Positions 2,962 through 9,012 of a stretch of 64,000 nt of DNA are shown here, in pieces; position 1 is the stretch's first letter, and each line of letters begins with the position of its first letter. The stretch is from Massilia aquatica. GTDB lineage: Bacteria > Pseudomonadota > Gammaproteobacteria > Burkholderiales > Burkholderiaceae_D. The notes under the pieces are model-generated. The model was not told the DNA's origin. It was given only the letters and a program-made list of their open reading frames with translations, and did not search any database. Both the position numbers and the translations under genes were made by a program. The stretch is from positions 1 to 64,000 of the forward strand of contig NZ_VVIW01000014.1 in the NCBI RefSeq assembly GCF_011682045.1, written 5' to 3'.

Positions 2962-3711
2962 ATGCCGACCCTGATCCTCACGCCCCGCTACACCGACGAC
3001 GCCCAAGCACTGTGGAAAGCCGCCGCCGCACTTGGCTGGCAAGTCGAGCGCCTGGTCAGCTGGCGCGTGCCGGCCGCGCTGCAAACGCTGTCCGAGCCGG
3101 TGTTGTACGGCGAAGCACTGTTCGGCCCCGCGCTCGCTGCCGAACTGGGTCTGGACCTGCTGGGTCCGCCGGAAGACTGGCTGGTGCGGCTGCCGTTCGC
3201 CTACCGCAAACGCGCCATTTCGCTGAGCACGCTCGGGCAGGCGCGCCAGCTAACGGCGCCGGCGTTCGTCAAGCCGCCCAACGACAAGAGTTTCCCGGCC
3301 GCCGTCTACAAGGGCGCCGATCTACCAACGGAATACGACGACGACATGCCGGTGCTGGTGTCCGATGTCGTCACCTGGGAAAAGGAATTTCGCTGCTTCA
3401 TCCTCGACCGCACCCTGCGTACCTTCTCGGTCTATGCGCGCGCGGGCGAGTTGCAGCGCGATGCCGACTTCCACAGCACCCCCGAAGAAGATGCCCAAGT
3501 GCAGGAATTCATTGGGCGCCTGCTGGCCGATCCGGCTGTCGACTTGCCGGCCGCCACCGTGGTCGATGTCGGCACGATCGCCGGCCTCGGCTGGGCCTGC
3601 GTGGAGCAAAACGCGGCCTGGGGCGCAGGCATCTACGGCTGCGACCCGTCCCAGGTGCTGGAGGTCTTGCAACGCGCCTCCATCAAGCTGGACAACAAGG
3701 ATCGTCGTTAA
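2962..3711 (+). CDS. ATP-grasp domain protein (DUF4343 type)
   Basis: The protein has 249 residues. The core FVKPPNDKSFPAAVY matches the ATP-binding lysine strand of ATP-grasp proteins. EKEFRCFILDRTLRTFSVYAR and the later VVDVGTIAGLGWACVEQNAAWGAGIYG match the metal and ATP-binding part seen in the DUF4343 family, which acts on its own without a known substrate. The N-terminal 90 residues form the pre-ATP-grasp fold. It is probably a cytoplasmic ligase of unknown specificity. The last 167 bases of the gene and 27 bases after it are repeated about 3.4 kb downstream. Confidence 0.75.
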   Translation: MPTLILTPRYTDDAQALWKAAAALGWQVERLVSWRVPAALQTLSEPVLYGEALFGPALAAELGLDLLGPPEDWLVRLPFAYRKRAISLSTLGQARQLTAPAFVKPPNDKSFPAAVYKGADLPTEYDDDMPVLVSDVVTWEKEFRCFILDRTLRTFSVYARAGELQRDADFHSTPEEDAQVQEFIGRLLADPAVDLPAATVVDVGTIAGLGWACVEQNAAWGAGIYGCDPSQVLEVLQRASIKLDNKDRR

Positions 3712-3738
3712 CAACGTCCAGAATGTCGCAAATCAAAG
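3543..3738 (+). repeat. Direct repeat, copy A (3' end of ATP-grasp gene)
   Basis: These 196 bases match 6942-7137 with no gap and 17 differences by my count (about 91 percent). The copy covers the last 55 codons, the stop and 27 bases of non-coding DNA. Confidence 0.9.
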
Positions 3739-6941: not shown

Positions 6942-7137
6942 CTTGCCGGCCGCCACCGTGGTCGATGCCGGCGCCATCGCCAGCCTCGGCTGGGCCTGCG
7001 TGGAGCAGAACGCGGCTTGGGGCGCAGGCCTCTATGGCTGCAACCCGGCCCGGGTGCTGGCGGTCTTGCAGCGCGCCTCCATCAAGCTGGACAATAAGGG
7101 TCGTCGTTAAAAACGTCCAAAATGTCGCAAATCAAAG
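6942..7137 (+). pseudogene. Truncated ATP-grasp 3' end (direct repeat copy B)
   Basis: Copy B of the repeat at 3543-3738. It encodes the last 55 residues (LPAATVVDAGAIASLGWACVEQ onward) and the stop, but has no 5' part. Several of the differences change amino acids, so the copy is a drifting paralogue or decaying remnant and not a recent exact duplication. Confidence 0.85.
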
Positions 7138-7214: not shown

Positions 7215-7319
7215 TTGAACAACAGCCAGCCTCAGCATTAACGCTGGAGGCCCTGCTGTCGGGGAAATGCGCCGCATTTTCCGAGGAGACACATCACCCA
7301 CATACAGGAGCGTCACGTC

Positions 7320-7580
7320 ATGGATACCAACGCCGTCGATCTGCGTACCACCCTGGCCGCACAACCCGTCAACCGCAGCGTCAGCGTCTCGGTGCCGAGC
7401 CAGGTGTATTTCGACCTGGACCAGTTCCAGCGCGTCCAGAAAGAGCTGCTCGGCCAGCTTGGCTGCCCGGCCTGCACCTCCGGCTTCGATATCCGCTACG
7501 ATATCCAGCGCCGCTTCATCGTCGACGCCAACCTGGCGGTGCAGGCAACCGGGCTGGCGCAAGACCAGCTCTCGCCCTGA
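7320..7580 (+). CDS. Small CPAC-motif protein, putative substrate peptide of DUF692 enzyme
   Basis: The protein has 86 residues with AGGAG 12 bases upstream. There is no signal peptide. Residues 1-45 (VSVSVPSQVYFDLDQFQRVQKELLGQLG) look like a structured leader, followed by a core C49-P-A-C52 and SGFDIRYD (54-61), then a tail to residue 86. Its stop is one base from the start of the DUF692 gene, so the two are translationally coupled. DUF692 (MNIO) enzymes modify Cys, Asp or Asn in small partner peptides, as in methanobactin, TglA and bufferin systems. This gene is in the right position and has suitable residues, but belongs to none of those precursor families that I recognise. The function as a precursor is inference. 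Confidence 0.6.
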   Translation: MDTNAVDLRTTLAAQPVNRSVSVSVPSQVYFDLDQFQRVQKELLGQLGCPACTSGFDIRYDIQRRFIVDANLAVQATGLAQDQLSP

Positions 7581-7581
7581 C

Positions 7582-9012
7582 ATGCGCGAGCTGCCCGAAC
7601 TGGGCGTCGGCATGGTCTGCCTGCCCGGCCTCGAAGCCTTCATCGAGGCCGCGCACGAGCTGATCGACGTCATCGAAATCGAACCCCAGCCGCTCTGGTT
7701 CAAGTCGGCGGCGGCCGCGGTGCCGTACGCAGTCAATACCGGCGCCCTGGCGCAGCTGTGCGCCGATCCGCATCCCAAACTGGTGCATGGCATCGGTTTT
7801 CCGGTCGGCGGCAGCGTGGCGCCCGAGCCGGACCAGGTGGCGCTGTTTGTCGATGTGATCAAGGCGCTGGGCGCTTCCTGGGCCAGCGAGCACCTGAGTT
7901 TTTCGCGGGTCGATGGCGCCGCAGGCATGTTCAATACCGGCTTCTTGCTCCCGCCCCTGCAAAGCGCGCAAAGCGTGGCGCTGGCCGCGTCCAACATCCG
8001 CGCCCTGAGCGCGCAATTGCCGGTGCCGTTCGCCTTCGAAACCGGCGTCAACTACCTGCGCCCGCTCCCCGGCGAAATGTCGGACGGCGCCTTCTTCGGC
8101 GCCATCGCCGAAGAAGCCGATTGCGCCATCTTGCTCGACCTGCATAACCTCTGGTGCAACGAGCGCAATGGGCGCCAGGGCGTGCTGGCGGCGCTCGACG
8201 ACATGCCGCTCGAGCGGGTGTGCGAAGTCCACCTGGCCGGCGGCGACCACCTGGACGGGTATTATCTCGACGCCCATTCCGGCCTGGTGCCGCCGGAGCT
8301 GATGCAGCTGGCACACAAGGTACTGCCGCGGCTGCCCAATCTGAAGGCGCTCTTGTTCGAGATCGTGCCCGCGTATATGTCGGCGCGCACCATCGGCCAG
8401 GGCGAACTGACGGCGCAACTGCGCGACTTGCGCCAGCTCTGGAACGAGCGCAGCAAGTCGCTCCAGGTGGCATGCGGCACGCCGCGCCCCATGGCGCGCA
8501 CCATTACGGCCGCCGACAGCGCCTTGCCGTCGCCAACCGAGTGGGAGCGCGCACTGGCCGGCCGCGTGCTCGAATCCGACGCGGACGCGCCGTTTGCGCA
8601 GGTGTTCGATGCCGACAATGGCGTGGCCGTCCTGCGCCAACTGGTGGCGGCGGTGCGCAGCGGGACCATTGTCGATTCGATGACGCTCAGCTACCGCCTG
8701 ATTGTGCTCAGCCTCGGCGAGCCGGCATTTTTATCGCTGCTGCGGGCCTTCTGGAAAACCCGCCCGCCGGAACCGTTTGCGACCGAAGAAGCGCTTAATT
8801 TCGCCGAATTCCTGCGCACCCAGGGGCTCGCCATTCCGCATCTGGACGAGGTGCTGGCGTTCGAACTGGCATCGCACCAGGTGCGCATGTACGCACAGCA
8901 TAAAACCGTGCGCTTTACCTGTTCGCCGCTGCCGCTGCTGATGGCCTTGCGCCAGGCGCGCATGCCCGACTTTGCCGATCATGGCGATTTTGCGCTGACG
9001 ATCGAGCCATAG
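7582..9012 (+). CDS. DUF692 (MNIO) enzyme fused to a BufC/DUF2063-like domain
   Basis: The protein has 476 residues. Residues 1-290 form a DUF692 TIM-barrel with the usual iron-ligand regions: SEHLS (102-106), ETGVNY (153-158), DLHNLWCNERNG (186-197), VHLAGGDH (216-223) and FEIVPAYM (259-266). Known members bind two or three irons and oxidise peptide Cys, Asp or Asn residues. Residues from about 310 to the end form a second helical domain (MTLSYRLIVLSLGEPAFLSLLRAFWKTRPP, FAEFLRTQGLAIPHLDEVLAFELA). It resembles the partner proteins (HvfC/BufC, DUF2063) that are normally a separate gene and hold the substrate. The stand-alone partner is missing here, which supports a fusion. The ATG at 7582 directly follows the stop of the small-peptide gene. 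The substrate is probably that peptide. Confidence 0.8.
   Translation: MRELPELGVGMVCLPGLEAFIEAAHELIDVIEIEPQPLWFKSAAAAVPYAVNTGALAQLCADPHPKLVHGIGFPVGGSVAPEPDQVALFVDVIKALGASWASEHLSFSRVDGAAGMFNTGFLLPPLQSAQSVALAASNIRALSAQLPVPFAFETGVNYLRPLPGEMSDGAFFGAIAEEADCAILLDLHNLWCNERNGRQGVLAALDDMPLERVCEVHLAGGDHLDGYYLDAHSGLVPPELMQLAHKVLPRLPNLKALLFEIVPAYMSARTIGQGELTAQLRDLRQLWNERSKSLQVACGTPRPMARTITAADSALPSPTEWERALAGRVLESDADAPFAQVFDADNGVAVLRQLVAAVRSGTIVDSMTLSYRLIVLSLGEPAFLSLLRAFWKTRPPEPFATEEALNFAEFLRTQGLAIPHLDEVLAFELASHQVRMYAQHKTVRFTCSPLPLLMALRQARMPDFADHGDFALTIEP

Follow-up and report, generated by a model that had tools for sequence, protein, structure and literature searches.

The window, a stretch of 64,000 nucleotides from the 7.47-Mb genome of Massilia aquatica, carries a pair of adjoining genes that encode a small CxxC protein and a fused multinuclear iron oxidase (MNIO; Table 1). 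The two genes are very closely spaced: the stop codon of the small gene (TGA) occupies 7578-7580, a single base (7581) follows, and the ATG of the enzyme gene begins at 7582, with its own stop codon at 9010-9012. An earlier, sequence-only reading of this DNA had placed C49, C52, the SGFDIRYD stretch and the one-base gap as they are found here by direct reading. It had also held that the small protein has no signal peptide, and a hydrophobic N-terminal stretch is indeed not visible by eye. Judged by the enzyme, Massilia rubra and M. mucilaginosa stand nearest among named relatives, with 92% identity over the best segment.

Table 1. Features of the gene pair, in positions of the window
Feature	Position	Strand	Size and basis
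AGGAG ribosome-binding-like site before the small gene (putative)	7306..7310	+	read from the letters
Small CxxC protein gene (putative MNIO substrate, adjamnio-7-like)	7320..7580	+	86 aa; read directly, homologues
C49-P-A-C52-T-S-G55 motif, probable core of the small protein	7464..7484	+	alignment
Fused MNIO enzyme gene	7582..9012	+	476 aa; read directly, profile match
Catalytic MNIO domain, about residues 1-290	7582..8451	+	alignment, comparison with TglH
DUF2063-like helical partner domain, about residues 316-435	8527..8886	+	profile comparison, predicted model
Beta-alpha-beta tail, about residues 441-476 (possible truncated RRE-type element)	8902..9009	+	predicted model

An R2K-type ATP-grasp gene lies about 3.6 kb upstream of the pair in the window; such a gene precedes the pair in four close genomes (the window's own and those of L003, L027 and L029) and was not noticed at the other loci. 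The end part of the ATP-grasp gene in the window (2962-3711) is present twice, at 3543-3738 and 6942-7137, in copies that are 91% identical and that flank about 3.2 kb with three ORFs absent from M. rubra at the same place. The M. rubra counterpart of this gene scores as R2K clade. The arrangement is apparently a local insertion with partial duplication.

The N-terminal part of the enzyme is a clear member of the MNIO family. The DUF692 profile PF05114 matches it at 124.9 bits against a cut-off of 25 (E 4.3e-36), and matches all 21 sequences of the enzyme alignment (A2), which comprises the window and 20 further loci, with the locus L022 set aside. Ten positions (H69, H104, E153, D186, H188, N189, H217, D230, H232 and E260) are invariant in these 21 enzymes and identical in TglH, and these are candidate metal ligands. 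TglH also shares the LDLHN motif with the window enzyme, and its structure (8hci) is the best solved structure found by sequence with the enzyme profile (E 1.1e-29). TglH works with a separate partner, TglI, and modifies the C-terminal Cys of a peptide scaffold. In HvfB, residues N175, D242 and H244 are described as required for activity in PMC13419390, and are taken here, by motif, as the counterparts of N189, D230 and H232. The window enzyme scores below the cut-off of every NCBIfam MNIO equivalog that it touches (BufB, ApyH, HvfB, ChrH and MbnB); the best scores are 95 bits against 310 for BufB and 93.2 bits against 400 for ApyH.

The sequence-only reading had proposed that the C-terminal part of this chain resembles an MNIO partner protein, and profile comparison upholds that proposal at a remote level. 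The DUF2063 profile PF09836 reaches 15.9 bits on residues 321-411 of the window enzyme, below its cut-off of 27.2 (E 0.017), and registers at E values up to 1 in five of the 21 aligned enzymes, the window's included (best E 0.0016). Profile-to-profile alignment is more telling: with hhalign, the C-terminal domain aligns to a profile of DUF2063 partners over 115 columns with a probability of 94% (E 1.5e-7). The partner profile held 25 sequences, namely the seed and the 24 of 29 fetched loci retained by a phmmer filter, and the domain alignment (A3) held 17 of the 21 enzymes. All controls stayed at or below 0.5%: a reversed profile gave 0.2%, the N-terminal domain of the enzyme 0.5%, the small protein 0.2%, and 40 column shuffles at most 0.4%. 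A predicted model of the domain, built from A3, is helical and ends in a beta-alpha-beta element (pLDDT 88). This model has no PDB match in Foldseek at E <= 0.001; the DUF2063-RRE reference structure, 3dee, ranks 11th of the 40 matches listed and yet has the top TM-score (0.40) and the top probability (0.25), both non-significant, and the TglI-type structure 8hi7 is absent among those 40. Solved structures searched by sequence with the C-terminal profile yielded nothing meaningful. From the profile comparisons we conclude that the C-terminal domain is a remote DUF2063 domain followed by a short tail, and the predicted model makes it possible that the tail is a truncated RRE-type element. This organization fits the 'PME-type 2' partners with a truncated RRE described in PMC12452194. 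Counted from stop to stop, the frames of all 20 cluster-7-like enzymes span 473 codons or more; the L021 enzyme ends before the C-terminal tail.

The small protein is best characterized by its homologues. In an alignment of 23 small-protein domains (A4, with L022 and the L005 copy, in which C52 is replaced by Trp, set aside), G48 and C52 are invariant, and S54 and G55 are each kept in 22 of 23. Position 49 is Cys in 19 domains, His in three and Met in one, and position 57 is Asp in 19 and otherwise Ile or Val. The proposal that C49, C52 and D57 might all be invariant thus holds for C52, which is lost only in the decayed copy of L005, and fails for C49 and D57 (19 of 23 each). The protein is duplicated in tandem at L017, L019 and L023 and in genome G844, with His-x-x-C in the second repeat of two of the first three, while G376 carries two separate copies of the small gene in a row. 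A predicted model has a mean pLDDT of 75, with blocks of 80-94 over residues 21-70, and runs in the order strand, helix, CxxC loop (which includes a short helix at residues 51-54) and then strands.

Database searches do not link this protein to the bufferin, methanobactin or TglA precursors. It has no match in NCBIfam, searching solved structures by sequence gave nothing meaningful, and its model has no PDB match in Foldseek at E <= 0.001. The sole Pfam match, to YnfU, lies below the cut-off (E 0.025 for the window protein and 0.013 at best) and extends to four of the 23 members at E values up to 1; this similarity was set aside.

With the enzyme alone as the query, 21 loci came to light, in Massilia, Lysobacter, Nitrosospira, Rhodanobacter, other beta- and gammaproteobacterial MAGs, Rhodosalinus, Marivita, Rhodococcus, two other actinobacterial MAGs and one cyanobacterial MAG. 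The gene pair is spread over scattered bacteria of at least two phyla. The small gene had been expected to be conserved beside the enzyme, and so it is, lying just upstream at 20 of the 21 loci, decayed in one (L005). The cyanobacterial locus, L022, contains no homologue of the small protein and has a different small ORF with CPACSSG at that place; its enzyme gene is interrupted, in a MAG of low coverage, and the locus carries correspondingly little weight. Among 292 genomes of that phylum, 17 gave matches, none above 35% identity apart from L022. A comparison of the enzyme with plasmids matched 233 records, with none covering 80% of the enzyme among the 30 matches listed.

Searches were also started from the small protein. 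It was present in 19 of 20 searched genomes from among those of the 21 loci (L013's genome was left out, and the one negative is that of L022), always at one site and sometimes as two repeats. Wider searches, in which at most 15-28 first-look candidates were scored per genome, so that copies may be missed, gave matches in 7 of 245 genomes of the window's family, all in one genus, and in 3 of 369 of its class, including the window's own and one spurious match. Three other families gave 3 of 248, 3 of 198 and 2 of 251, and six of these eight were already known. All five new genomes found through the small protein (G376, G192, G148, G844 and G1012) have an adjoining fused enzyme; the small copy is decayed in G148. 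A match in G306 (E 9.4e-4) lies opposite a 497-codon ORF, was judged spurious and was dropped. Divergence of the two proteins is also correlated: small-protein and enzyme distances give r 0.89 over 20 pairs, and r 0.78 over 16 pairs without near-duplicates, with 0 of 5000 permutations in each case. In the genomes sampled here, the two genes keep closely together, and the cassette is rare and patchily distributed.

By eye, a wider conserved operon was not seen in 20 loci (L004, L005, L006 and L013 left out), nor was any exporter, protease or tailoring gene that recurs beside the pair. This argues against a secreted natural product, and makes it probable that any modified Cys site is used inside the cell. 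In two genomes the cassette lies less than 2 kb from a second, bufferin-type MNIO (L035, 3517-7914, and L014, 2140-6437).

The simplest model, with one enzyme and one substrate, is complicated by two genomes of the same genus as the window. In M. frigida (locus L005) the small gene has lost C52 to Trp, and in G148 it is frameshifted, with its ATG out of frame with the body and its stop codon lost. Five derived changes (S24P, Q40R, L47P, F56C and Y60D) are common to the two, so decay probably began before G148 and M. frigida split. Substitution rates were compared as dN/dS by NG86, with the small gene scored over its last 80 codons. Where the small gene is intact, in five close genomes (the window, three named Massilia and G192), its ten pairwise values lie at 0.22-0.46; the eleven pairs involving G148 or M. 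frigida give 0.46-0.92. The enzyme stays at 0.12-0.25 in every one of the 21 pairs that seven close genomes form, with 0.14 between G148 and M. frigida. Between these two, codon differences in the enzyme are 41 amino-acid-changing to 86 silent, against 37 to 11 in the small gene (Fisher p 1.5e-7), and all ten candidate ligand positions are intact in both enzymes. In these two genomes of the genus the enzyme outlives its presumed substrate and stays under purifying selection, and no other observation weighs as heavily against reading the pair simply as one enzyme with one substrate.

Two explanations could account for the survival of the enzyme. A second substrate might be encoded elsewhere in the genome, with the small protein one of at least two and only the other kept in G148 and M. 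frigida. Purifying selection on the enzyme where the small gene decays speaks for this explanation, and PMC12452194 discusses one MNIO serving several related precursors. However, the small protein turned up no second homologue in M. frigida, where all 104 candidates were scored, or in G148 among the 22 of 89 first-look candidates scored, and we regard a second substrate as unlikely. Alternatively, the small gene of the two genomes may still be used in an altered form, or its decay may be recent and the enzyme on its way out. The M. frigida frame does remain open over 86 codons, but the damage in G148 speaks against continued use, and the five shared changes pre-date the split, after which the enzyme was still held to a dN/dS of 0.14. 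This second explanation is accordingly quite improbable.

A different possibility is that the small CxxC protein is a helper, such as an iron-delivery or electron-donating subunit, and that the enzyme acts on something else. A predicted fold in which the CxxC sits at a short helix would suit such a role, as would the weak, non-significant fold resemblance of the model to the metallochaperone HypA (E 0.33) and the conservation of the enzyme where the small gene has decayed. In G844, a member of Marivita's family, DsbD/CcdA-type and thioredoxin-type genes lie directly downstream of the fused enzyme (L066, 3616-4780), and their presence beside the pair would also be in keeping with a helper. Dithiol redox chemistry would end, however, wherever C49 is replaced by His or Met, and the precursor in bufferin clusters is encoded by the gene ahead of the MNIO gene (PMC12452194). 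A helper role therefore appears rather unlikely.

How new is this system? The sequence-only reading had suggested a new precursor family, and this suggestion is not supported, because PMC12452194 (Antoine et al. 2025) describes signal-less CxxC precursors, 'adjamnio-7', beside the MNIOs of cluster 7. The representative of that cluster is Novilysobacter spongiicola (same source). Lysobacter spongiicola DSM 21749, the source of our locus L007, is the strain listed under that name; of its two MNIOs, one has a frame of 289 codons and the other a frame of 473, and the longer, fused one lies behind the genome's one match to the small-protein profile. From the organism and the motif, rather than from a published alignment, we infer that the window small protein and adjamnio-7 belong to the same family, which thus appears to be already in print. 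Enzyme-partner fusion and tandem or His-x-x-C variants find no mention for cluster 7 in the accessible text of that paper. In the literature searched, as far as its texts were accessible, His/Met-x-x-C variants, tandem substrates and decay of the small gene with a conserved enzyme were not met.

The comparison with BufABC and HvfABC is also close, since there too an MNIO and a DUF2063 partner act on Cys, as is putatively the case here. The differences are that the precursors of those systems have Sec signal peptides (PMC12452194), whereas none is visible on the window small protein, and that the window domain, which finishes with a short tail, is no more than remotely related to DUF2063. MovX resembles the window enzyme as a single-chain MNIO with a C-terminal recognition-type domain (PMC13419390, PMC12452194). 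Its extra domain is given as a winged helix or, in PMC13419390, a fused RRE, with DUF2063 unmentioned in the accessible text, and its precursor is different. An artificial counterpart exists as well. According to PMC13419390, the HvfB-HvfC interaction is weak, a fusion built to get around this is highly active, and the partner is required for the mixed-valent diiron state. That construct, like the window enzyme, has enzyme and then partner in one chain; unlike it, the construct was engineered by joining complete HvfB to complete HvfC and has a different substrate.

A one-chain enzyme and partner had been put forward as a new arrangement, and this claim loses much of its force. No report of a natural MNIO-DUF2063 fusion was found in the open-licence literature searched, including the accessible text of PMC12452194, PMC13419390, PMC13174530, PMC12710340 and PMC12668002. 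On the other side, the artificial HvfB-HvfC fusion works, and the bufferin-type MNIO of the window's own genome is likewise fused to DUF2063 (556 aa; PF05114 E 4.8e-99, PF09836 E 1.1e-18). In six other genomes of the genus a second MNIO occupies a frame of 555-659 codons, a length that suggests fusion, and 41 DUF2063 places in 60 genomes of the order include three with frames of at least 557 codons, the window's own included. The laboratory-built fusion thus seems to have a natural equivalent in this one-chain enzyme, and the pair, although real and useful, represents a variant of a system already known and not a new kind.

Some further arrangements were noticed around MNIOs. The 556-residue chain of the window's genome lies behind a bufferin-like precursor (L039, 3671-5341; by eye). 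In cyanobacteria, MNIOs are fused behind a SAM methyltransferase-type domain at L103 (628-2058) and L105 (184-1596) by Pfam, and by eye at L108. At L118 and L119, cyanobacterial methyltransferase-type proteins have an MNIO-like half seemingly without the usual metal-ligand motifs (by eye). On the minus strand of L114 (1042-2793 on the reverse complement), a 583-codon cyanobacterial MNIO has, by eye, a DUF2063-like C-terminal part.

The explanation that we favor, and hold to be somewhat more probable than its negation, is that a self-contained MNIO with a built-in partner oxidizes C52 of a small folded cytosolic protein. The two genes would form a self-contained protein-modifying cassette, in which the enzyme is a multinuclear iron oxidase with a DUF2063-type partner domain in the same chain. 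The partner domain would dock the small protein and keep the iron center mixed-valent and active, the part that the separate partner HvfC plays for HvfB. The small protein would be a folded cytosolic substrate whose strand and helix present the C49-x-x-C52-x-S-G loop; C52 would be oxidized with O2, with C49 (or the His or Met found there) as its neighbor. The product would probably be a modified Cys site, perhaps metal-binding. We infer in this way the substrate role of the small protein, the atom that is changed, the cofactor chemistry and the function.

The coupled pair, the ten conserved candidate ligands, the remote DUF2063 domain, the invariance of C52 and the correlated divergence all speak for this explanation, and so do the activity of the HvfB-HvfC fusion, the need for the partner in the mixed-valent state and, with little weight, the CPACSSG ORF of L022. 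Against it stand the His or Met at position 49 in four of 23 domains, the DUF2063 score below the Pfam cut-off and the non-significant Foldseek results, as well as the tailless L021 enzyme and the retention of the enzyme beside a decayed small gene. The predicted folding of the small protein also counts against it, as most RiPP precursors are not folded, and the predicted fold has no significant structural match.

A bolder version is possible, and we advance it only tentatively: a self-sufficient MNIO, encoded in a portable two-gene cassette, acting on a folded cytosolic protein instead of a secreted peptide to make a Cys-derived cofactor or metal site, with (C/H/M)-x-x-C-x-S-G as a new recognition site and at least one further client in lineages that lost the small protein. 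Some MNIOs have been suggested to modify proteins (PMC12452194), and the natural two-gene system would test whether MNIOs act on folded intracellular proteins. If the favored explanation is true, the natural enzyme-partner chain, with its small and probably folded substrate, would lend itself well to studies of how a partner governs the state of the iron and presents the Cys.
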